Below are positions 6,040-34,171 of a stretch of 45,040 bases of DNA, one piece after another (the stretch's first letter is position 1; each line of letters begins with the position of its first letter). Origin of the DNA: Christensenella intestinihominis (GTDB lineage: Bacteria > Bacillota > Clostridia > Christensenellales > Christensenellaceae); the NCBI RefSeq assembly GCF_001678845.1, contig NZ_MAIQ01000013.1, positions 1-45,040 of the forward strand, given 5' to 3'. The translations under genes and the position numbers were made by a program. The notes beneath the pieces are model-generated. The model made no database searches. It was not told the origin of the DNA and saw nothing but the letters and a program-made list of their open reading frames with translations.

Positions 6040-6215
6040 CTCTCCAAGGGCTGTGCTACACTGTAAGGGATGCTGTGGATTGGTTTGTTTCTCCTACCAC
6101 CAGATGGTTCTCATAAGGCTCCAACCACAGCCCTTTACCAGTTTGTTGATTAGTTAGATACCGCCAGACGGTTTATGTAGAGCGAGGTTACAAGCGTAAA
6201 GTGTTCTGTGGTACA
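6040..6215 (+). ncRNA. Candidate IS110 bridge RNA
   Basis: The non-coding left end of the IS110 element folds into successive hairpins. One long hairpin pairs GCTGTGG (6071-6077) and TGG with CCA and CCACAGC (to 6131) and encloses a small hairpin whose core reads ACCACCAGATGGT. A second hairpin near 6160-6175 has the matching core ACCGCCAGACGGT. Two related loops before the transposase fit the target-binding and donor-binding loops known for IS110-group bridge RNAs. Limits are approximate. The hairpins are seen; the RNA identity is inferred from the family. Confidence 0.6.
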
Positions 6216-6248
6216 GCAGCATCAAATATATTTCCCCGGAGGTTCGTT

Positions 6249-7424
6249 ATGATTTATGTTGGTATTGATGTTGCAAAGGATAAGCATGATTGTTTTATCA
6301 TGAATTCCGAGGGTATTATCATCGCGGATGGGTTCACCATTTCCAATAACATGGAGGGCTTCAACACCCTGCTGGATAGGATTCGCTGCTGTTCCTCGCG
6401 CCAAGATAAAATAAAAGTAGGACTTGAGGCTACCGGACACTACAGCTACAATATCCTCGGATTCCTTCTTGACAATGGTCTGCCAACCTACGTCTTGAAT
6501 CCCCTGCACACCAACCTCTACCGGAAAAGCCTTAGCCTTAGAAAGACCAAGACCGACCGTGTCGACGCACGTTCCATTGCGGCTATGCTCATGTCTGATG
6601 TGGGCCTCAAACCCTACACAGATACAGCTTACCACAACGAGGAATTAAAATCACTCACCAGATACCGTTTCGACAAGGTGAAGGAACGCGGTCAGCTCAA
6701 ACAGTCCATTGCTCGCTTGGTTTGCATTCTGTTTCCCGAACTGGAAAACCTTGTTTCAACACTCCATATGGCCTCTGTCTATGCCTTGCTGGAAGAGCTT
6801 CCCGGAGCAAGGCAAATTTCCGAGGCGCACCTCACACACCTCAAGACGCTTCTATCCACCGCCTCCAAAGGCCATTACAAGCGGGATATGGCACTGCTGA
6901 TCCGCGAGACCGCTCAATCCTCCATTGGCTCCCATAGGCCCGCTAAATCACTGGAGCTGAAGCATACCATCCACCTCATCCGGGAATTGGATACGGAGAT
7001 TCAAGAAATTGAGACGGCTATCCAAGCTATCATGGACAAGCTCCATTCTCCCATCACCACCATTCCCGGTATCAGCTACCGCATGGGCGCTATGATACTG
7101 GCTGAGGTAGGCGATTTCTCCCGCTTTGATTCTCCGGATAAGGTGCTTGCATACGCCGGTCTTTCGCCCTCTACCTACCAATCCGGAAAACTGGCAAATT
7201 GTTATCCCCACATGGAGAAACGTGGCTCCCGATACTTACGGTATGCTCTTTTCAATGCCGCCAAGTATGTCTGCCATTGGGATGCTGCCTTTGCAGCATA
7301 CCTTGCCAAAAAGCGTTCGGAAGGCAAGCATTACAATGTCGCTGTTTCCCATGCGGCCAAGAAACTCGTACGGCTCATCTTTGCCCTGGAAAAATCCGGC
7401 GAGCCGTACCATTTGGCGGCATAA
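6249..7424 (+). CDS. IS110-family DEDD transposase (recombinase)
   Basis: A 391-residue recombinase with an N-terminal RuvC-like DEDD domain, opening with YVGIDVAKDKHD (catalytic Asp near residue 6), a Glu in LEATGHYS, and acidic residues in KTDRVDARSIA. The C-terminal Transposase_20 domain has the family block AGLSPSTYQSGKL, whose serine region is thought to make the covalent DNA bond. Full length, with no frameshift, so probably active. Start ATG 6249 follows GGAGG at 6 bp; the open frame extends upstream to 6201 but lacks a ribosome site. Direction is opposite to both flanking genes. Confidence 0.94.
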   Translation: MIYVGIDVAKDKHDCFIMNSEGIIIADGFTISNNMEGFNTLLDRIRCCSSRQDKIKVGLEATGHYSYNILGFLLDNGLPTYVLNPLHTNLYRKSLSLRKTKTDRVDARSIAAMLMSDVGLKPYTDTAYHNEELKSLTRYRFDKVKERGQLKQSIARLVCILFPELENLVSTLHMASVYALLEELPGARQISEAHLTHLKTLLSTASKGHYKRDMALLIRETAQSSIGSHRPAKSLELKHTIHLIRELDTEIQEIETAIQAIMDKLHSPITTIPGISYRMGAMILAEVGDFSRFDSPDKVLAYAGLSPSTYQSGKLANCYPHMEKRGSRYLRYALFNAAKYVCHWDAAFAAYLAKKRSEGKHYNVAVSHAAKKLVRLIFALEKSGEPYHLAA

Positions 7425-7513: not shown

Positions 7514-8104
7514 TCAGACTTGACTTTTAATAGTTAGTCTTATAATATCTATGATCCAGTCACTTTCCGGGCATGGCATGTGGAAAAGCGCGACAGCCTG
7601 CGCGCATCCCTGGATCGCCGTCCAATAAGCGACGGAGAGCGCCAGGGGATCGCCCGCGCGGATCGTTCCTTCTTCCTGCCCCTTTTGAATTAGGGGGACT
7701 GATTTTTCATAATAGTTGACACGTTGGATGATTTGATGGATATGTTCCGGCGTCGCGTCGCTGTAAAAGGCCTGGTTCATGAGTACGAACATTTTTGCGG
7801 CGAAGGGCTCCCTGCGGATCATGGAAAAAATAAATTCACAGGCCCTTTCAAAAAAGGCGAGGGGCGCAAGCCCGGAAAGGCCCGCAGACATGTTTTCCGG
7901 ACCGCTGATTCCAAGACCAATCAATTCCTCATACAATTCTTCCTTAGAGGAAAAATAGTGGAATAAAAGCCCCGTGCTCATATCCGCCGCAGCGGCAATA
8001 TCGCTGATTTTAGTTGCGGAATAGCCCTTGCGTATAAAAAGGTCGAGGCCTGTTTCGAGTATCTGGCTGCGCCGTTTTTCCTTTTGGTCCGATCGTTTGC
8101 CCAT
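7514..8104 (-). CDS. TetR/AcrR-family transcriptional regulator
   Basis: A 196-residue repressor. The N-terminal helix-turn-helix is typical (LFIRKGYSATKISDIAAAA, then GLLFHYFSSKEELYEEL), and the C-terminal half is a variable ligand-binding domain whose ligand is unknown. Its own promoter (TTGACT, 17 bp, TATAAT) overlaps a perfect 18-bp palindrome, which argues for autorepression. Downstream on the same strand is the CrtI-like gene, now cut off by the IS110 element about 90 bp after this stop. The C-terminus ends normally, so the insertion does not seem to have truncated it. Confidence 0.9.
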   Translation of the reverse strand: MGKRSDQKEKRRSQILETGLDLFIRKGYSATKISDIAAAADMSTGLLFHYFSSKEELYEELIGLGISGPENMSAGLSGLAPLAFFERACEFIFSMIRREPFAAKMFVLMNQAFYSDATPEHIHQIIQRVNYYEKSVPLIQKGQEEGTIRAGDPLALSVAYWTAIQGCAQAVALFHMPCPESDWIIDIIRLTIKSQV

Positions 8105-8121
8105 TTATTGACTCCGCGTTC

Positions 8122-8139
8122 ATTGAATAATAATTCAAT
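8122..8139. promoter_or_regulatory. Palindromic operator of the TetR gene
   Basis: A perfect inverted repeat, ATTGAAT-AATA-ATTCAAT, 18 bp before the TetR start. It touches the -10 element of the TetR promoter, the place expected for an autorepressor site. Binding by this TetR is inferred from position. Confidence 0.75.
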
Positions 8140-8166
8140 TATATGTTTTATTCCTTGAGAAGTCAA
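8138..8166 (-). promoter_or_regulatory. Sigma-A promoter of the TetR gene
   Basis: On the minus strand TTGACT (complement of 8161-8166), a 17-bp spacer and TATAAT (complement of 8138-8143). Near-consensus spacing and hexamers. The operator palindrome overlaps its downstream edge. Confidence 0.78.
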
Positions 8167-8170
8167 ACAA

Positions 8171-8198
8171 AAAGCACCTTCCTTTCGGAAGATGCTTT
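8171..8198 (-). terminator. Intrinsic terminator of the InlB-B-repeat protein gene
   Basis: Hairpin AAAGCA/TGCTTT plus CTTCC/GGAAG with one mismatch and a 4-nt loop. Read on the minus strand it is followed by a T-rich run, ending the gene at 8212-9111 before the TetR promoter. Confidence 0.8.
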
Positions 8199-8211
8199 CC
8201 GGTTCCGTCAA

Positions 8212-9111
8212 TTAAAATCTCCGCGGGCGTCTCCTGCGGTTGCGGCGCCGTGCAATACGGAAATGACGAATGGTCCGCATTACGACTACAAACACCGCAA
8301 AACAAATTCCAATCCAGATCAGCACCCAAATCAGGATATAAGTGTAACTGCGCTCAAACAGCGCGCCCAATGTACGGTTTTCATCGAGGTTAAACGAATA
8401 TTCGGGATTTGTGCTGATTATTTTCCCGGGGATTGCCGCGTCATACCAGCCGGAAAAACGCCAGTCTTTCTCAGGCGACGCCCCGATGGTCACGACGCTG
8501 CCGCCGGGAAATGCGCCCGCACCCGTTACGGAGCCTGTGCCCTCCGGGCTGACCGTAAGGTCAAGCTGATAGGTCGCCGCAAATTTTGCGGTCAACGTTG
8601 CGGGAGTATCCTCTGTGATCGTAAACGTATAGCTCTGGTCCGTGCTGACCGGGTCCTCTGCGGACGGGTCGGTAAACCAGCCGATAAAATTATAACTATC
8701 CACAGCGTTTGCCGTTACGGTAACGCTGTCTCCCAGTCCATATTCCGTACCGCTCTGGGAAACGGAGCCACCCTCCTGCGGCGAGGCGTCTACCGTAACC
8801 GTATACTTTTTCTCGAATTTTGCGACATAAGAACGGTTTTCTTCCAGCGTATAAGTAAACTCGGCGCCGGATTCATCCACCGGGGTTCCGTCTGCCCGGA
8901 ACCATCCTGCAAAAATATAGCCGTCCCTGGCAACGGCTTTTATCGTGGCATTTGTTCCGGCCGGGATTTCTCCGCCGCCGGCAACATCATTTACAGATAC
9001 GTCGCCGCCCTCCGCGGGCTCGGCGGTTACATCCACTGTATAAGCAAATGCAGGGACCGCACATGCAACGATCAGCAGTATGGTCACAAGGAAAACAACA
9101 ATTTTCTTCAT
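8212..9111 (-). CDS. Exported surface protein with three InlB-B-type repeats
   Basis: A 299-residue protein. Residues 1-23 form a signal peptide ending AFA. Three divergent repeats of about 75 residues follow (roughly 26-100, 101-180, 182-258), each with a Gly-Gly-x-Val/Ser turn, a GWF or GWY motif and a closing Ala-Lys-Phe or Leu-Phe strand, typical of the bacterial-repeat / InlB B-repeat group. A membrane helix near 262-284 is followed by a very arginine-rich cytoplasmic tail (RRRNRRRRPRRF at the end). So the repeats should face outside and the tail stay inside. There is no LPxTG motif. Start follows GGAG. Function is probably adhesion or a cell-surface scaffold, but the partner is unknown. 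Confidence 0.82.
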   Translation of the reverse strand: MKKIVVFLVTILLIVACAVPAFAYTVDVTAEPAEGGDVSVNDVAGGGEIPAGTNATIKAVARDGYIFAGWFRADGTPVDESGAEFTYTLEENRSYVAKFEKKYTVTVDASPQEGGSVSQSGTEYGLGDSVTVTANAVDSYNFIGWFTDPSAEDPVSTDQSYTFTITEDTPATLTAKFAATYQLDLTVSPEGTGSVTGAGAFPGGSVVTIGASPEKDWRFSGWYDAAIPGKIISTNPEYSFNLDENRTLGALFERSYTYILIWVLIWIGICFAVFVVVMRTIRHFRIARRRNRRRRPRRF

Positions 9112-9136
9112 AAAACTCTCCTAACTAATACATAAT

Positions 9137-9165
9137 ATTCTATCCAGAATCTGAAAAAGTGTCAA
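9137..9165 (-). promoter_or_regulatory. Promoter of the InlB-B-repeat protein gene
   Basis: On the minus strand a perfect TTGACA (complement of 9160-9165), 17-bp spacer and TAGAAT (complement of 9137-9142), about 25 bp before the start codon. The rest of the 9112-9376 gap is AT-rich and should also hold the msrA promoter, which I could not place with confidence. Confidence 0.8.
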
Positions 9166-9376
9166 TCTTTTGGGGTAAGTTTCAAAAAAAGTTAATAATA
9201 TACATTAATTTATGTAAAAAATGATTATACACTATGGCGCACGGGGTACATATAAATGCGAAAGGGCTGGCTTAAGGAAAGACAACTTAAAATTTTATGC
9301 CTGCGAAAATAAAAAATACGTTGAATGTCTCTAATTATTTTATTTTGAATTAAGAACGGAAAAAGGAGGCCTGTAG

Positions 9377-9895
9377 ATGAGAGAAATTTTTTTAGCCGGC
9401 GGCTGCTTCTGGGGAATGCAAAAATATTTTGACCGGGTGGTTGGCGTAATTACAACCCAGGTAGGCTATGCCAACGGCAGGACCGTGAACCCGACCTATG
9501 AAGAAGTGTGCTGCGGCAATTCGAATTTTACGGAAACCGTATGGGTACGCTATAACGAAAATATAATTGATTTCAGGGGAATACTGGATTTGTTTTTCAA
9601 GGTGATTGACCCGACGGCGCGCAACCGGCAGGGAAGTGATTTTGGAACGCAATACCGGAGCGGAATTTATTATACCAACGCCGCGGAAGGCGCGGTGGCC
9701 AGGGAATACATTGAAAAACTCCAGCAGCAGTATGCCCGTCCGATTGTGACGGAGGTGGAAAAGCTGCGGAATTATTATACGGCGGAACCTTATCACCAGA
9801 ATTACCTGGAAAAGAATCCGGGAGGCTACTGCCACATTGGAAAGGAGGCGTTCCAGTATGCCGGAACGTATACACCGTTACAAACGGCCCGGTGA
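9377..9895 (+). CDS. msrA: Peptide-methionine (S)-S-oxide reductase MsrA, cytoplasmic
   Basis: A 172-residue enzyme that reduces the S form of methionine sulfoxide in proteins. The active-site motif GGCFWG is at residues 8-13 (nucleophile Cys10), followed by VGYANGR and the conserved [14 protein letters not shown] block. There is no signal peptide, so it acts in the cytoplasm, unlike the MsrAB lipoprotein at 28156. AAAAAGGAGG precedes the start. The end overlaps the MsrB start by 38 bp, so the two are co-translated. Confidence 0.97.
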   Translation: MREIFLAGGCFWGMQKYFDRVVGVITTQVGYANGRTVNPTYEEVCCGNSNFTETVWVRYNENIIDFRGILDLFFKVIDPTARNRQGSDFGTQYRSGIYYTNAAEGAVAREYIEKLQQQYARPIVTEVEKLRNYYTAEPYHQNYLEKNPGGYCHIGKEAFQYAGTYTPLQTAR

Positions 9896-10337
9896 CGACG
9901 CCTTAAAGCAGGAGCTTCCGGCGGAACGGTATAATGTCATGGTGTCGGACGGAACGGAACGGCCCTTTTCAAGCGAATATTGGGATTATGAAAATGAGGG
10001 CATTTACGTGGACGCCATAACGGGTGAACCGCTTTTTTCTTCCTATGATAAATTCACATCGGGGTGCGGATGGCCAAGCTTTTCAAGACCGCTGCCAGGC
10101 GGACATATTACCACGCGTAGGGATATTTCACATGGAATGATCCGCACGGAGGTAAGGAGTGCGGAAGGGGATTTCCATCTGGGCCATGTGTTTGACGACG
10201 GTCCGGCGGAAATGGGCAGCCAGCGTTATTGCATTAACGGCGCGGCGCTTCGTTTTATTCCGGCGGAGCGCCTTGGCGCCGAAGGGTATGAGTACCTGCT
10301 GCCTTACATGGAAGACAGGCGAAAGGAAGAAAAATAG
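9858..10337 (+). CDS. msrB: Peptide-methionine (R)-S-oxide reductase MsrB, cytoplasmic
   Basis: A 159-residue partner of MsrA that reduces the R form of methionine sulfoxide. It shows GEPLFSSYDKF, the GCGWPSF motif, [10 protein letters not shown] and the catalytic Cys in RYCING. The paired CxxC zinc-binding cysteines of some MsrB proteins are absent, as in many Firmicutes. The start is ATG 9858, 9 bp after AAAGGAGG and inside the end of msrA; a TTG further upstream lacks a site. Confidence 0.96.
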   Translation: MPERIHRYKRPGDDALKQELPAERYNVMVSDGTERPFSSEYWDYENEGIYVDAITGEPLFSSYDKFTSGCGWPSFSRPLPGGHITTRRDISHGMIRTEVRSAEGDFHLGHVFDDGPAEMGSQRYCINGAALRFIPAERLGAEGYEYLLPYMEDRRKEEK

Positions 10338-28155: not shown

Positions 28156-29289
28156 TTAGTCAAAGATTTGCTTGAGGAAGCCGTAGCCCCCGGCATCGAG
28201 GTCGCCGTAGGGGATGAAGCGGATGGAGGCGCTGTTGATGCAGTAGCGCAGCCCGCCCAATTCCTTGGGGCCGTCGTCAAAGACGTGGCCGAGGTGGGTG
28301 TCGCCCGCGCGGCTGCGTACCTCCGTGCGCAGCATATTGAAGCTGCTGCCCGCCTTCTCGACCACAACCTCCGGGACAATAGGCTTTGAAAAGCTGGGCC
28401 AGCCGCAGCCGGACTCGAACTTGTCCTCCGAGCTGAAAAGGGGTTCCCCGGTGACCACGTCCACATAGACGCCCTTTTCAAAATTACCGGCGTATTCGTT
28501 GCTGTAAGGGCTTTCGGTGTCGCCCTGCCGGGCGACCCTGTACTGGATATCGGTCAGCCTTTCCTTCAGCTCCTCATCACTGGGAACGGGATAGTCCTCG
28601 GGCCTGATAAGACTGGAAAATTTGGATGTATCGAGGCCCTCCTCCTCAATAAATTCAGCGGCGTCATTCAGGTTGATGTGGCAGTAGCCGCCCGGGTTTT
28701 TATCCAGGTAATCCTGGTGGTATTCCTCCGCCGTATAGAAGTTATCGAGGGGCAGGATTTCGGTAACGATGGGGCTGGCGTACCTGGCCTGCTGCTTTTC
28801 TGCCACGGATTGGGCGACGGCCTTGTCAGCCTCGTCCTCGTAATAGATGCCGGAACGGTATTGGCTGCCGTGGTCGTTGCCCTGCTGGTTGACGCTGGTG
28901 GGGTCCACGACCTTGAAAAAGCCGTCCAGAAGCTGTTCTGTCGAAATGTGGGAAGGGTCGTAAACCACCTTAACGGTTTCGGCATGGCCGGTGTTGTCGT
29001 AACATACCTGCTCGTAGGTCGGGTTTTCCGTGTTTCCGTTGGCGTAGCCCACGTCGGTGTCGTATACGCCGGGAAGTTCCTTCATGTAGGCCTCGAGCCC
29101 CCAAAAGCATCCGCCCGCCAGGTAAATCGTGTGCAAACCTTTTTCGGCGGGCATTTCCGCCTCCGCAGATACATTTGCTGCGCTTTCCGCCTCCGCCGCT
29201 TTGCCCGCCGGGACGGCGGAGCATCCCGTAAGGAACGCCAGCGTAACGGCAAGCAGTCCTGTGCTTACCAGTGTAATGAATTTTTTCAT
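28156..29289 (-). CDS. msrAB: MsrAB fusion lipoprotein, exported methionine-sulfoxide reductase
   Basis: A 377-residue protein joining both reductases. The signal peptide ends in lipobox LTGC (lipidated Cys23). MsrA (about 50-205) has GGCFWG with nucleophile Cys61, and MsrB (about 245-375) has [17 protein letters not shown] and the catalytic Cys in RYCINS. It is thus anchored outside the membrane and repairs exported proteins, using electrons from the TlpA-like thioredoxin and CcdA encoded upstream. The operon order ccdA-tlpA-msrAB with short gaps (20-23 bp) supports this. Start is preceded by AAAGGAG. Confidence 0.96.
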
Positions 29290-29312
29290 AATATGTACTC
29301 CTTTCCGTAGGT

Positions 29313-29861
29313 TTAACTGATGGCCTCGAAGGTGGCCCTGATGGTATCGTTGTCCGCATGGCCGGGGACCTGGCTGACCAGGATGCCGTCGGAACCGATA
29401 TATGCGGAGGTAGGATAGCCCCGGACGCCTGCCTGCGTGCCGTAAGCGCCGTCCGTATCGAACAGCACCGTGATATGTTCCGTGTGCTCCACGCCCGCAA
29501 ACCAGGCCTTAAAATTCTCCATGCTTTTCTCGCCCCTTTGACCGGGAGCCACAATGGTCAGCACACGGAAATCGTTATCTTCGGAGGAGAGGGTGTTGAT
29601 ATCCTCGAGGCCGCCCAGGCAGACGGGGCACCAGGAAGCCCAGTATTTGAGGTATACCTTTTCCCCGGAAAAATCTGAAAGCTTTACGGTGTTGCCGTCA
29701 AGGTCCGTCATTTCAAAATCGGGCGCGGGTTCGCCGCGGTTCATCTTTTCCATGCCTGCCGTCGCGCTTTCCTGCCCTCCAGCAGCACCGGGGACGGCGC
29801 CGCATGCGGACAGGAACAGGAGCAGGAGGCCGACGGCGGCGAATAAATAGCTGCGTTTCAT
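29313..29861 (-). CDS. TlpA/ResA-type thioredoxin-fold lipoprotein
   Basis: A 182-residue exported redox protein with lipobox FLSAC (lipidated Cys20). The thioredoxin fold carries the redox motif WCPVC (Cys78, Cys81) and a cis-proline segment in [11 protein letters not shown]. It resembles Etrx-type partners that pass electrons from CcdA to extracytoplasmic MsrAB. It starts 20 bp after the ccdA stop with AAAGGAG upstream. Role inferred from the order of the genes. Confidence 0.93.
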
Positions 29862-29881
29862 AATGCATCTCCTTTCATGGT

Positions 29882-30580
29882 TCAGGGAAAGACCGTAAAA
29901 ATACTGTTCAGGGTGCCCGTCATTAAAAGCACGCCCATCAGGATGATTACGACGCCCCCGGCAATTTCGATTTTTCGCAGGTGTTTATTGAATTTCCGCA
30001 CCTTGGCCAGCAATACGTCGGAAAAGAGGGCCAGCACAAGGAAGGGCACCAGGAACCCGAGGGAGTAAACACCCATCAGGAATCCGCCGTACAGCGGCTG
30101 GCTGCTGGCCGCTGAAAGCCCCAGGATAGCGCCCAGGACGGGGCCGATGCAGGGCGTCCAGCCAAAGCTGAACGTGAGGCCCAGCAGGAAGGAGCCGAGG
30201 CAATCACCCTTGCGGGAACGCTCAAAGTCTGCTTTTTTCTGGTAAGACAGCCATTTGATGCGGACCAGCCCCGTCTGGTGCAGGCCGAGGATAATTACAA
30301 TAATCCCCATTGCGATCATAAAGGGTGTGCTGCCGATGACCGAGCCAAGCGCACCCGCGCCGAACCCCAGCAGGATAAAGCATACCGAAATGCCCGCCAC
30401 GAAGAGCACGCTTTTGAGGATGACGCGCAGCCTGCGCCGGGCGGCGCTTTCTTCCGCGGAAGTCATGCCGGAGGAAAACTGCACGACATACACGGGGAGC
30501 AGCGGCAGGATGCATGGAGAGAAAAAGGACAGCAGGCCCGCCGCCAGCACCGTGCCTAAATAGAGTGTTTGAGGACCCAT
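29882..30580 (-). CDS. ccdA: CcdA-type transmembrane thiol-disulfide reductase
   Basis: A 232-residue membrane protein with six predicted helices, in two repeats of three. Its redox cysteines sit in SFFSPCILPLLPVY (residues about 18-31) and in WTPCIGPVLG. It carries electrons from cytoplasmic thioredoxin to the outer TlpA-like protein. The ATG at 30580 is chosen because an extended frame to 30784 has no ribosome site and adds a non-homologous leader; GAAAGGGG lies about 10 bp before the chosen start. Confidence 0.94.
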   Translation of the reverse strand: MGPQTLYLGTVLAAGLLSFFSPCILPLLPVYVVQFSSGMTSAEESAARRRLRVILKSVLFVAGISVCFILLGFGAGALGSVIGSTPFMIAMGIIVIILGLHQTGLVRIKWLSYQKKADFERSRKGDCLGSFLLGLTFSFGWTPCIGPVLGAILGLSAASSQPLYGGFLMGVYSLGFLVPFLVLALFSDVLLAKVRKFNKHLRKIEIAGGVVIILMGVLLMTGTLNSIFTVFP

Positions 30581-30611
30581 ATGCGTCGCCCCTTTCCTGT
30601 TTGATGTACCA

Positions 30612-30640
30612 ATTGTACCGTTATACCGGTGAAATGGTAA
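30612..30640 (-). promoter_or_regulatory. Probable promoter of the ccdA-tlpA-msrAB transcript
   Basis: On the minus strand TTACCA (complement of 30635-30640), 17-bp spacer, TACAAT (complement of 30612-30617). A short dyad of GTAC half-sites sits over the -10 and might bind the nearby regulator. The -35 is weak, as expected for an activated promoter. Confidence 0.5.
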
Positions 30641-30775
30641 TGGAATTGCTTTCGCTGTTTCTTTGATTTTTTGCGGTAGGATGAAAAAAGCGGGCCGGGG
30701 ACCTGCGCAGGATTTCCAATCATCCGCGGGGGGCGGACAAAGCGGCTGGATTACCGGAGGAATGGAGGGAACAAA

Positions 30776-30807
30776 AAACGGCACGACGGGAAACCGCCGT
30801 GCCGTTT
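30776..30807 (-). terminator. Intrinsic terminator of the BFD-type gene
   Basis: Stem AAACGGCACG / CGTGCCGTTT (10 bp) with a small inner CGG/CCG pairing; read on the minus strand it ends in a T-run. It isolates the [2Fe-2S] gene from the ccdA operon downstream of it. Confidence 0.85.
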
Positions 30808-30839: not shown

Positions 30840-31046
30840 TCAGATCATGTTATACATCATATCCGAAATCGCGTCCATAATTTTGTCGTGACACTGGCCG
30901 CAGCCTGTGGAGCAATGCGTCACCTTCTGGACATCCTCGAACGCGGAAGTCACGTCCGTAAATTTTTTAGAGCTCCGCAGGGCGCTTTCGATATCCGCCA
31001 GCGTTACCTGCTTACAATTGCAGATCACTTTGTTTTCCATTGCCAT
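30840..31046 (-). CDS. Small BFD-type [2Fe-2S]-binding protein
   Basis: A 68-residue stand-alone BFD (bacterioferritin-associated ferredoxin-like) domain. The four cysteines are in VICNCKQVT and STGCGQCHD. It probably carries one [2Fe-2S] cluster and passes electrons, but its partner is not nearby. The GlpA-like protein at 18468 contains the same domain as a fusion. GGAGGG lies 8 bp before the ATG. Confidence 0.88.
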   Translation of the reverse strand: MAMENKVICNCKQVTLADIESALRSSKKFTDVTSAFEDVQKVTHCSTGCGQCHDKIMDAISDMMYNMI

Positions 31047-31115: not shown

Positions 31116-33569
31116 TTACTGCGGGGGATAACGGTCCCGGATTGCTTTCAGGAAATCTTCAAATGTCTCCGTGGAGGCGGCGATCACGTTGGCGGAGGTC
31201 AGTGGAATTCCGGGCCCGATTTCGACAGTAGCAGCCAGTGCGCTGTAAGTCGAAGTTGCCACCTGATATCTTTCCCCGACAGGTTCATCGCTGTCCTTAT
31301 CATATTTTTGCGCGTAAACCGTATACTGCCCGCCGCCTTGCTCCACGGATGTTTTCCGGATATCGTATTCCCCGAGCGCGGGGTTACTCACTAATTTTGT
31401 TACTCCATATCCAGGGGGCGGGGTTTCATCCTCGAGTACGCTTTCAAACTGCAAATAGTAATCCCGTTCCGTCGAACCAAAAAATTCTACCGTGACACTG
31501 GAATCGGGGATATTGCAGTTCACGACCAGTATCATATCGGAATCGTAAGGATTTTTGACCTTGAAATCCGGTCCGCCGGTGGCAATCGCCGCGTCCATTC
31601 CCTGCGGGACATAGCTTGCCATAATCGTGTTCGGCACGCGCTCCACGATATCCATTTCCGCTTTCAAGGCGGCGTCATACATGGTAGACGTGACCTGGCA
31701 GATGCCGCCGCCCGCCTGTTCCGTATAGACTCCGTTTTCGATGCCCGGCGCAAGCGCCCATCCGTCCTCCGCAGTCCGGTCTCCTACATAATCGTTGACG
31801 GAAAACGTCTCGCCCGGATGGATAACGGCGCCGTTCAGTTCGTTGCTGATTTTCCACACGTTAAATTTCCGTGCATGATCGCTTCCGCCGACGGTTGTGG
31901 TGGCGGCCCCCATCAGCACGGGCGCGGGTCCCGCCTCCGGTGCGGCGGTTTCCGTTTTTCCCGGCGCGGCGAAGGAGTGGAAATCCTGGTTTCTAATTTG
32001 TTTTTTAATCTGCTCCCTGAGCGCGTCCTCGTCCACGCGGAAAAAGGTTTCCGGCTCGTTCACGACAATTTTTCCCGAAGTGGTGAGCGCGTCCTCGTCG
32101 GATGCCTTTTCTACGGAATAGGAGGCCGCGGGCCGGTTCCAGCCCGCGCTGTCCCCGGCAATCGCCGCCTTGATCGGGGCGTCGTCAACAGAGAACTCCA
32201 TCGGGAAGTTTTTGCCTTCGCCGCCGTTTTCCATCGCGTGCGCAAGCGCGGCCTCCATATCGAAGGTAACGCCGAGCACGGAAAGGGGATGCCTGTAAGG
32301 CGTATCGATATTTTTCACGGTATACTCAACCTCCCTGGAAAGGAGATCGTCCACCACCGGCTGGAGTGCGCTCTTCCCTTCCTCAAAGGTCATGCCGCCC
32401 ATATTGATCCCGGCGACGGAGGTTCCCCCGGCAAACTTATCGCGGTCCGTGATGCCGGGGTAGATTTCACGGGCAGGCTGGCATGCGGTGGTAAAGCATA
32501 CGACGGCGAGCAAGGCCGCCGCAAATACGGAAATAAGTTTAATTCCTTTTTTGGTATTGTTTTTCATAAAAATTCCCCGGATTCGCTTTTCCGCGGTTTT
32601 TTTGTTGTTTTGCAAAGACATCCCGAGAACGGGCTGCGGGCACATCCGTCCTGAAAACATTTCCAATATTGTACTGGCATACGCCTTCTTTTCCTCTAAG
32701 GGGAGGGGCGCGGTTGCGATATTGTCGCATGCCGTTTCCATATCTGTTTTAATGGGCTTCTGCATCAGCCATACCACCGGATTGAACCAATAGACGGCGC
32801 GCAGCGCAAGCATCAGCAGGCAGACGATGTAATCCCCCCGCTTAAAATGTACGAGCTCGTGCCGCACGGCAAAGCGGAGTTTCCCGGGATTCCCAAGGAG
32901 GGAGACGGGCAAAATAAGCTTCGGAAAGAAGGAAGCGGTGAGCGCCGGGGAAGAAACGGAATTCTGGACGAATACGCGTAAATTCCGCCGGATTCCAAGC
33001 TCGTGCCGTACCTCGTCCACAACCCGCATGACCTCTCCCGGCGGAAGGACGCACGAACGCCTGATTTTCCACGAGAGGGAAATATAGCTTCCGGCTGTTT
33101 TTAAAGCTGCGGCCAAAATACCGGCGAGCCAGACGGTTAAAAATATGTTTTCGGGTCTTATATCCGGCGCTGTAGCCGTGCCGCTTCCGGCGGGAATCAT
33201 GCTGCTTTGCGCTTCCGGTACGTTTTCCGTGCCGCCTGCGGCCGTATTGCCTGTCGGGGTGGAACCGGGCTGCATTCCGGCAGGAACAACCCCGGACTGC
33301 GGCGCGGCGGCCGTTGTCCCCGGCACAGCGGCTGCCGGCGCTTCCGCTTCCGCCGCTGCGGCCGGAACGGAAGCCTGCGGGATGGTGATAAACCCGAAAC
33401 TGCTCTCGGCGGTAAATGGCATCGCCAGCCGCGCAAGCAGCAGGAACCATATAAAGTATTGCAAAGACGGCGAGAATTGTTTCCTGAAGACGCGCTTTAG
33501 AAGAAGGATCAGCGCGAACAATACCGCGGAATAAACGGTAACTTCAAGCAACATGCGCAGGATATTCAT
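31116..33569 (-). CDS. BlaR1/MecR1-type M56 metallopeptidase fused to a VanW region
   Basis: An 817-residue membrane protein. The N-terminal part (about 1-300) is an M56 (BlaR1-like) protease: helices near 5-25 and 36-52, an Ala/Pro/Thr-rich external linker (65-135), the zinc motif HELVH (237-241) and the following DMETACDNI (E278). A helix near 344-361 leads outside. Instead of the usual penicillin-binding sensor, residues 370-550 look like a peptidoglycan-binding-4 type region and about 555-700 is a VanW domain (VNDYVGDRTAEDGW, GGGICQVTSTMY). It overlaps blaI by 4 bp, so it probably relays a wall signal by cleaving BlaI. Ligand unknown. Confidence 0.9.
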   Translation of the reverse strand: MNILRMLLEVTVYSAVLFALILLLKRVFRKQFSPSLQYFIWFLLLARLAMPFTAESSFGFITIPQASVPAAAAEAEAPAAAVPGTTAAAPQSGVVPAGMQPGSTPTGNTAAGGTENVPEAQSSMIPAGSGTATAPDIRPENIFLTVWLAGILAAALKTAGSYISLSWKIRRSCVLPPGEVMRVVDEVRHELGIRRNLRVFVQNSVSSPALTASFFPKLILPVSLLGNPGKLRFAVRHELVHFKRGDYIVCLLMLALRAVYWFNPVVWLMQKPIKTDMETACDNIATAPLPLEEKKAYASTILEMFSGRMCPQPVLGMSLQNNKKTAEKRIRGIFMKNNTKKGIKLISVFAAALLAVVCFTTACQPAREIYPGITDRDKFAGGTSVAGINMGGMTFEEGKSALQPVVDDLLSREVEYTVKNIDTPYRHPLSVLGVTFDMEAALAHAMENGGEGKNFPMEFSVDDAPIKAAIAGDSAGWNRPAASYSVEKASDEDALTTSGKIVVNEPETFFRVDEDALREQIKKQIRNQDFHSFAAPGKTETAAPEAGPAPVLMGAATTTVGGSDHARKFNVWKISNELNGAVIHPGETFSVNDYVGDRTAEDGWALAPGIENGVYTEQAGGGICQVTSTMYDAALKAEMDIVERVPNTIMASYVPQGMDAAIATGGPDFKVKNPYDSDMILVVNCNIPDSSVTVEFFGSTERDYYLQFESVLEDETPPPGYGVTKLVSNPALGEYDIRKTSVEQGGGQYTVYAQKYDKDSDEPVGERYQVATSTYSALAATVEIGPGIPLTSANVIAASTETFEDFLKAIRDRYPPQ

Positions 33570-33940
33570 TTTGATTCCCCCAAACGGTCAATCAGCGATT
33601 TAAGCTCGGCCTGGTCCTCGCTGCGGAGGCCGCTTTCCTCGATCATGCACAGCAGCAAATCCTTCCGGCTACGCGAGCTGACTTTTTTAAGCAGGCTGCG
33701 GCTTTCCGCACGGATGCAGTCTTCACGCTGCACGAGCGGATAGTAAAACTTATCGCGCCCCTTGGCCTCAAAACCGACAAACCCTTTGTCACAAAGCTTT
33801 TTCAGGTAAGAAGCATAGGTGCGGTAACTCCAGTCGACGGTTTCGCCCATGGCCTCGATCACCCCGGAAAGGGGTTGGGGGTCCCTGCCCCAGAGGGCGT
33901 TCATAACCATCCATTCACGGTAAGTCAAGGTTTCCGTCAT
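33566..33940 (-). CDS. blaI: BlaI/MecI-family transcriptional repressor
   Basis: A 124-residue winged-helix repressor (LTYREWMVMNALW, SYRTYASYLKKLCDKGFVGFEAKGRDKFYYPLV). The C-terminal helical half dimerises and in relatives is cut by the paired M56 protease between helices. The downstream gene begins in its last codons (ATGA overlap). A strong GGAGG precedes the start. An AT-rich double dyad upstream is the expected operator, so the pair should autoregulate. No beta-lactamase gene is in the window; targets lie elsewhere. Confidence 0.95.
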   Translation of the reverse strand: MTETLTYREWMVMNALWGRDPQPLSGVIEAMGETVDWSYRTYASYLKKLCDKGFVGFEAKGRDKFYYPLVQREDCIRAESRSLLKKVSSRSRKDLLLCMIEESGLRSEDQAELKSLIDRLGESK

Positions 33941-33988: not shown

Positions 33989-34028
33989 ATGATTATAGAA
34001 ACAAGCTTATGACTATAAGTATAATCAT
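33989..34028. promoter_or_regulatory. BlaI operator and -10 region
   Basis: Perfect 9-bp inverted arms ATGATTATA (33989-33997) and TATAATCAT (34020-34028) enclose a second dyad CTTAT-GACT-ATAAG (34006-34019). On the minus strand TATAAT (complement of 33992-33997) forms the blaI -10. Nested symmetric AT-rich sites over a promoter fit BlaI-type control; the exact TACA-type consensus is not matched. Confidence 0.65.
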
Positions 34029-34171
34029 AAAGCGGTACATGTCAATAGGAAAAGAAAAAATAGCCCTTGCGGTAATACAAAAAATAATTTTTCCCGAATT
34101 GTTTAAAAAAAGGGCTGAAAACCGGGTTGCGGAGCGGAAAAAATAAATCGCGGTTTTACTGAATTTTTACA

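Follow-up and report, generated by a model that had tools for sequence, protein, structure and literature searches.

A BlaR1-type membrane protease with a VanW-family ectodomain in Christensenella, a candidate receptor for the state of wall cross-linking

The window, that is, the whole stretch of DNA analysed here, is an entire contig (G000:C5, 45,040 bases) of the Christensenella intestinihominis draft genome. It harbours an operon on the minus strand in which a blaI-like repressor gene is followed by a gene encoding an M56 (BlaR1-type) membrane metalloprotease fused to a VanW domain. The fusion is encoded by a single uninterrupted open reading frame (ORF) with an ATG start and zero internal stops. 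The following features were identified at the locus.

34018-34045 (-): blaI promoter, with TTGACA at 34045-34040, a 16-bp spacer and TATACT at 34023-34018; 11 of 12 consensus bases, kept in three genomes
34009-34028 (no strand): palindromic operator (predicted), ATGACTATAAGTATAATCAT, conserved in three genomes and overlapping the -10 box of the blaI promoter
33566-33940 (-): blaI-like repressor of 124 amino acids, first gene of the operon (Penicillinase_R, E=6.8e-25), with a 4-bp overlap with the fusion ORF
31116-33569 (-): M56-VanW fusion protein of 817 amino acids
32577-33551 (-): M56 metalloprotease, residues 7-331
33156-33410 (-): Ala/Pro-rich outer loop, residues 54-138, at the position of the BlaR1 EL1 loop
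32847-32861 (-): HELVH zinc motif, residues 237-241, with E278/D282, D246 and Y297 at BlaR1 spacings
32481-32549 (-): last membrane helix and its end, residues 341-363, terminating in the lipobox-like CFTTAC
31905-32447 (-): stem, residues 375-555, akin to the PG_binding_4 stretch in stand-alone VanW proteins
31482-31871 (-): VanW (L,D-transpeptidase-type) domain, residues 567-696
31698-31700 (-): Cys624, codon TGC, in the only conserved Cys column of the VanW domain
31629-31631 (-): Asn647, codon AAC, in the column of the domain's only conserved His
30840-31046 (-): BFD-like [2Fe-2S] protein gene (PF04324, E=4.8e-10), a conserved neighbour directly downstream of the fusion

Pfam detected Peptidase_M56 at residues 7-331 (E=2.5e-45, 155.3 bits, cut-off 31) and VanW, PF04294, at residues 567-696 (E=9.1e-38, 129.1 bits, curated cut-off 27). 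The HEXXH...EXXXD motif and the additional D and Y lie at BlaR1 spacings, and all checked active-site residues are present (reference residues from PMC9834060). The Ala/Pro-rich loop, with predicted local distance difference test scores (pLDDT) below 50 at residues 54-104 and 106-133 of the structure model, is by its position the putative equivalent of EL1. The model places a helix at residues 341-360 between the M56 half and the VanW half. All this is in agreement with a sequence-only reading of the same DNA, which described a BlaI/M56 pair in which a VanW region takes the place of the penicillin-binding sensor, HELVH at 237-241, a membrane helix after the M56 part and VanW in the C-terminal half; the arrangement is intact and conserved in three genomes. 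That reading also named residues 340-380 as the place where a stop or assembly error might be found; none is there, and the junction is kept in two further genomes, each a single contig. Its peptidoglycan-binding-like stretch held only in part, as the stem (about 375-555) gave zero direct peptidoglycan-binding matches in Pfam at E up to 1. The stem is nevertheless homologous to the matching stretch of VanW-A, a stand-alone paralogue in the same genome (alignment over residues 318-796, 49% identity), and the stand-alone paralogue homologous to the stem matches PG_binding_4 (PF12229, E=4.9e-8).

The CFTTAC motif at the end of the last helix is common to M56 paralogues. A simple pattern detected a lipobox-like tetrapeptide in 26 of the 75 helix-bearing M56 frames (in Christensenella CFTTAC, elsewhere LTAC), and some M56 ectodomains might be lipid-anchored or cut. 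The gene could then encode a pre-protein, whose last helix would be a lipoprotein signal, the ectodomain being released as a VanW lipoprotein and M56 signalling separately. A precedent is BlaR1 itself, in which signal peptidase cleaves at Gly331, in the stretch linking the last helix to the sensor (PMC9834060). However, neither TTAC nor AVVC of the window makes a good lipobox, the pattern used is crude, 49 of the 75 frames lack such a motif, and the conserved fused order would be needless for separate genes. We consider the pre-protein very unlikely.

The full-length fusion is present in three out of six genomes of the genus, namely the window genome, G003 (72% identity) and G002 (54%). In G003 and G002 it occupies the same locus as in the window, with trmL, a Na/Pi cotransporter gene and pgk on one side and the BFD gene on the other. 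The BFD orthologues downstream of these fusions are 91% and 88% identical to that of the window, and the adjoining blaI orthologues 95% and 90%. Among 18 genomes of the family, no further match covered both the M56 and the VanW halves. Between the window and G003, the ratio of nonsynonymous to synonymous substitution rates (dN/dS) was 0.13 for the protease (residues 140-362), 0.14 for the stem and 0.08 for the VanW domain, and 0.49 for the Ala/Pro loop (57-139), where identity is 37%; these ratios are rough because dS ranged from 0.9 to 1.7, and the C-terminal tail (697-790) was too diverged for scoring. The VanW domain is thus evidently under purifying selection. A chance or assembly artefact is ruled out by the conservation in two single-contig genomes, and a recent or decaying fusion was rejected as the main reading because of the low dN/dS over protease, stem and VanW domain.

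The palindrome ATGACTATAAGTATAATCAT is the sole match in the window at up to three mismatches (0.03 expected), and an exact site lies at the equivalent place in G002 and G003. In each of the three fusion genomes no other site matches the pattern exactly, and no exact match was found in the three Christensenella genomes without the fusion. The own genome holds eight sites within three mismatches, compared to one for a backward control pattern; among the inexact sites, one is in front of a blaI paralogue and six fall within other ORFs or at their edges. The corresponding counts for pattern and control were 8 and 2 in G002, 7 and 4 in G003, 10 and 7 in G001, 5 and 4 in G004, and 8 and 8 in G005. 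The palindrome is a putative operator, different from the TTACAnTGTAA type of the second group of fusions described below (clade II). The operon may control little beyond itself; otherwise, its other sites are too different for the pattern. Because the only exact operator found is on its own promoter, the fusion is the main predicted product of induction.

According to the review PMC12729407, L,D-transpeptidases comprise two families, YkuD and VanW. The activity of VanW was identified in 2024 in C. difficile (LdtCd4 and LdtCd5, both likewise given in PMC11986978), its triad is Cys-His-small residue, and some VanW proteins lack the activity. The statement of the sequence-only reading that the function of VanW is unknown is therefore out of date, and the sensor of the fusion is a transpeptidase-type domain, since VanW is an L,D-transpeptidase family. 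The same reading had suggested a sensor of glycopeptide stress, in keeping with the earliest record of VanW, which is with vancomycin resistance (PMC12729407). This suggestion found no support: the fusion scores 47.5 bits against the NCBI van-operon VanW equivalog, below the cut-off of 365, and no van-type cluster was seen in the window, no genome-wide vanHAX search having been made. VanW is also widespread in the order, in at least 69 of 71 M56-bearing genomes. A glycopeptide sensor is the least credible of the readings, and we regard it as highly improbable.

Column 624 is the only conserved Cys of the VanW domain, present in 35 of 38 stand-alone domains, and column 647 is the only conserved His (36 of 38). 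These 38 domains were taken without a motif filter, from loci gathered mostly by similarity and not at random, and one more stand-alone row lacking residues at the two columns was set aside. In a set chosen by the Cys motif, His was present in 26 of 27 sequences; the 38-domain count is relied on instead. From the triad in the review and from being the sole conserved Cys and His, the two columns are the probable catalytic pair. In the window fusion the motif GGGICQ begins at residue 620; Cys624 is kept and Asn647 stands in place of His, so that this copy passes the domain cut-off and has the Cys, and lacks the conserved His. The fusions of G003 and G002 possess both residues, and column 624 is therefore Cys in all three Christensenella fusions. 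Contig C24 of the own genome encodes a stand-alone VanW protein (L025:4218-5507), at a distance of two ORFs from a gene of the LCP family. Its motif reads GGGLNHLAST, Asn and Arg occupy the columns of Cys and His, and its VanW domain is likely dead. Two loci of another genus of the family (L050 and L057) encode stand-alone VanW proteins with Ser for Cys; in L050, Tyr replaces His.

Stand-alone VanW genes in Christensenella genomes are of two types, A and B, which lie side by side. In 40-residue blocks over residues 560-680, identity to A genes is 65-95% for the fusions of the window and G003, and the fusion of G002 shares 88-98% with the B gene of its own genome. Upstream of residue 560 the three fusions are closer to each other (48-85%) than to the stand-alone genes, with a near tie in block 520-560 (window to G002 fusion 49%, window to own A gene 45%). 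The G002 fusion and the G002 B gene share 89.9% DNA identity across 705 ungapped bases. In the stem tree the three fusions group together (support 100), and in the VanW-region tree the G002 fusion groups with the G002 B gene (89) inside the B clade (100); both trees exclude VanW-B of the own genome, whose GGGICQTNST was missed by the motif filter. From the block identities and the trees, therefore, the VanW region of the G002 fusion was replaced by that of the resident VanW-B gene through recombination within the genome.

The fusion is not confined to Christensenella: that view was refuted when retrieved M56 loci were scanned and weaker VanW domains were found. M56 (PF05569) occurs in 71 out of 396 genomes of the order, with 150 matches as a table sum (up to five candidates per genome scored); 17 were left out, 16 with frames below 430 amino acids, plus G043:C197 (482 amino acids with a stop). 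Together with loci from other searches, 173 distinct M56 frames remained after de-duplication, 169 of them long enough for a tree. VanW-like domains are present in six of the 173 M56 frames, with blaI adjacent: the three Christensenella fusions, G064, which carries two VanW repeats, and G157 and G038, both cut by contig ends. In the tree, the Christensenella fusions (0.999) and those of G064, G157 and G038 (clade II, 0.964) form separate clades, whose common ancestor spans 165 of the 169 M56 domains. VanW ectodomains thus occur in two distant M56 clades, and therefore the pairing arose at least twice. Each clade-II fusion gene is preceded by blaI, and palindromes of the TTACAnTGTAA type were read by eye in their promoters. 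In G064, blaI is preceded at a distance of about 220 bp by a YkuD L,D-transpeptidase gene of the same orientation. Class-level searches (391 genomes each, up to two candidates per genome scored) revealed no further fusion among the matches listed, and no M56-VanW fusion was found among the matches listed from the open-licence PubMed Central literature.

At the Cys position, the G064 repeats have Glu and Asp and G038 has Gly (read by eye); the G157 domain keeps the Cys and has a gap at the His position. Cys and His are both present in two of seven fused domains, compared to 35 of 38 stand-alone domains (Fisher 0.0008), and per protein in two of six fusions (Fisher 0.003), relatedness being ignored in these tests. 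Since the pair is complete in the G003 and G002 fusions, the G002 fused domain is a near-copy of a stand-alone VanW and the sole exact operator is on the fusion's own promoter, the fusion could instead be a bifunctional regulated enzyme, that is, a working L,D-transpeptidase and its own effector, with wall stress leading M56 to cut BlaI and thereby to added cross-linking at the membrane. This main rival must contend with the window copy, which lacks the conserved His, and with the replaced Cys in G064 and G038, and we regard it as unlikely.

The reading that we lean towards, on slightly better than even terms, is that of a BlaR1-type receptor whose outer sensor is akin to the VanW-family L,D-transpeptidases of the cell itself and has been exchanged with them. 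It would be a decoy-transpeptidase receptor that monitors the state of L,D-cross-linking and signals by way of BlaI. The reading builds on features taken directly from the DNA: the intact fusion, the checked protease residues, the BlaI partner, the predicted operator on its own promoter, the purifying selection on the VanW domain, the exchange of the VanW region in G002 and the second recruitment in clade II. The VanW domain would bind ligands of VanW enzymes, either a donor stem peptide of peptidoglycan or a beta-lactam (for instance a carbapenem) attacking the active site, and the Cys, where kept, may be acylated. Occupancy of the sensor would move the membrane-embedded M56 protease out of self-inhibition; the protease would then cut the BlaI repressor, and the blaI/M56-VanW operon would be induced. 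The fusion thus probably senses trouble in wall cross-linking, and most likely it reads the ligands of the cell's own VanW enzymes. That the Christensenella VanW genes encode active transpeptidases is presumed here; cleavage of BlaI is predicted from homology, and the ligand, the signalling by occupancy and the physiological output are those we infer for the fusion.

Several observations weigh against this decoy receptor. No second exact operator was found, and a sensor targeting only itself is odd. The His to Asn change of the window copy is a single-base difference in a draft genome, and could be an error or peculiar to the strain. Three of the 38 stand-alone VanW domains also lack the Cys and His pair; when the fused domains are limited to those that show a clear residue at each of the two columns, the comparison becomes two of four against 35 of 38 (Fisher 0.063, relatedness ignored), and the two of six fusions that keep both residues could be enzymes. 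PMC12729407 states that beta-lactams directly upregulate none of the C. difficile L,D-transpeptidases, and in the RNA-seq results given in PMC11986978 for a mutant and its parent under ceftriaxone, zero VanW genes were differentially expressed; because of this, a response to drugs need not be part of VanW biology. For induction in Bacillus licheniformis, a further requirement has been proposed, namely a dipeptide derived from the wall that acts on BlaI (PMC3305447), so the receptor may not be the whole signal.

A narrower version of the decoy receptor is a strict BlaR1-style carbapenem sensor, in which acylation of Cys624 by a beta-lactam, like that of the BlaR1 serine, alone triggers signalling. 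Meropenem inhibits LdtCd4 and LdtCd5, their interaction with other beta-lactams being described as unknown (PMC12729407), and Cys624 is kept in all three Christensenella fusions. However, the His partner is lost in the window copy, Cys acylation is not general because the G064 and G038 domains lack the Cys, and no other operator target was found with the ATGACTATAAGTATAATCAT motif. This version seems to us rather improbable.

VanW is one of many ectodomains found on M56 proteases. Two sets were examined, one of 76 ectodomains (43 from a contig search over many phyla and 33 from whole-genome searches) and one of 89, all order-level (loci L168-L263). Pfam detected a penicillin-binding transpeptidase in 27 of the 76; in the 89, PF00905 was not found among the matches listed (25 of 26 families). 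DUF6034 was present in nine of 76 and seven of 89, VanW in four of 76 and two of 89, and LRR, RCC1, PG_binding_1, OmpA and others in few or single cases. From this variety, M56/BlaI looks like a general receptor chassis. The order-level ectodomains are very diverse, including LRR, RCC1, PG_binding_1, NAGPA and beta-helix. The own genome possesses four more blaI/M56 pairs (L020, L021, L022 and L023), three with DUF6034 and one with OmpA ectodomains. One blaI/M56 pair is flanked by two stand-alone ORFs with lipoprotein-like starts (L021:1345-2910 and 7974-9536), whose first residues resemble the M56 junction.

We further propose, tentatively and with a little less than even confidence, that the M56/BlaI chassis has at least twice captured VanW L,D-transpeptidase domains as receptors of the L,D-cross-linking state, the sensor being matched to the cell's own enzymes by recombination with resident VanW genes and often catalytically dead through loss of Cys or His. 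BlaR1 detects drugs by means of a look-alike of the enzymes that meet the drug. If the proposal is true, wall cross-linking is monitored through decoy transpeptidases of both known chemistries, serine in BlaR1 and cysteine in the fusion class. That this signalling protease has at least twice recruited a second, unrelated transpeptidase domain suggests mimicry of wall enzymes as a general way of sensing wall stress. With the fusion, both the binding partners of VanW domains and the possible monitoring of 3-3 cross-linking by bacteria become testable at the bench. M56/BlaI pairs are frequently annotated as beta-lactam sensors, and their ectodomains can be of very different kinds.

Elsewhere in the window, genes for an MsrAB fusion, a thioredoxin-like lipoprotein and a CcdA-like membrane protein lie in a row at 28156-30784 and may form an outer set for methionine-sulfoxide repair. 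Another msrA/msrB pair occupies 9377-10337, and an IS110-family transposase 6201-7424.

Similar to BlaR1 and MecR1, the fusion possesses an M56 gluzincin core with the active-site spacings, an autocleavage-type loop, an outer C-terminal sensor, a blaI partner upstream and a predicted operator on the shared promoter. It differs in carrying a stem and a VanW domain instead of the penicillin-binding domain; the BlaR1 sensor is related to class D beta-lactamases (PMC9834060). At E up to 1, Pfam gave no PF00905 match in the fusion, neither a beta-lactamase nor a PBP2a gene was seen beside it, and it scores 128.7 bits against the NCBI BlaR1 equivalog, below the cut-off of 400. The fusion thus appears to work like BlaR1. 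It does not qualify as a BlaR1, since a test for the defining penicillin-binding sensor showed this to be absent. With C. difficile LdtCd4 and LdtCd5 it shares a stem, probably related to PG_binding_4, followed by a VanW domain (architecture as outlined in PMC12729407); unlike them, it has a whole M56 protease as membrane anchor, and the window copy lacks the conserved His. Christensenella VanW-A and VanW-B are homologous to it over residues 318-796, and VanW-B is the source type of the G002 VanW region; these stand-alone proteins are without the protease, and those aligned possess both Cys and His. The M56-DUF6034 and M56-OmpA proteins of the own genome share with the fusion the M56 core, the CFTTAC junction and a blaI-like gene in front, and differ from it in their ectodomains.

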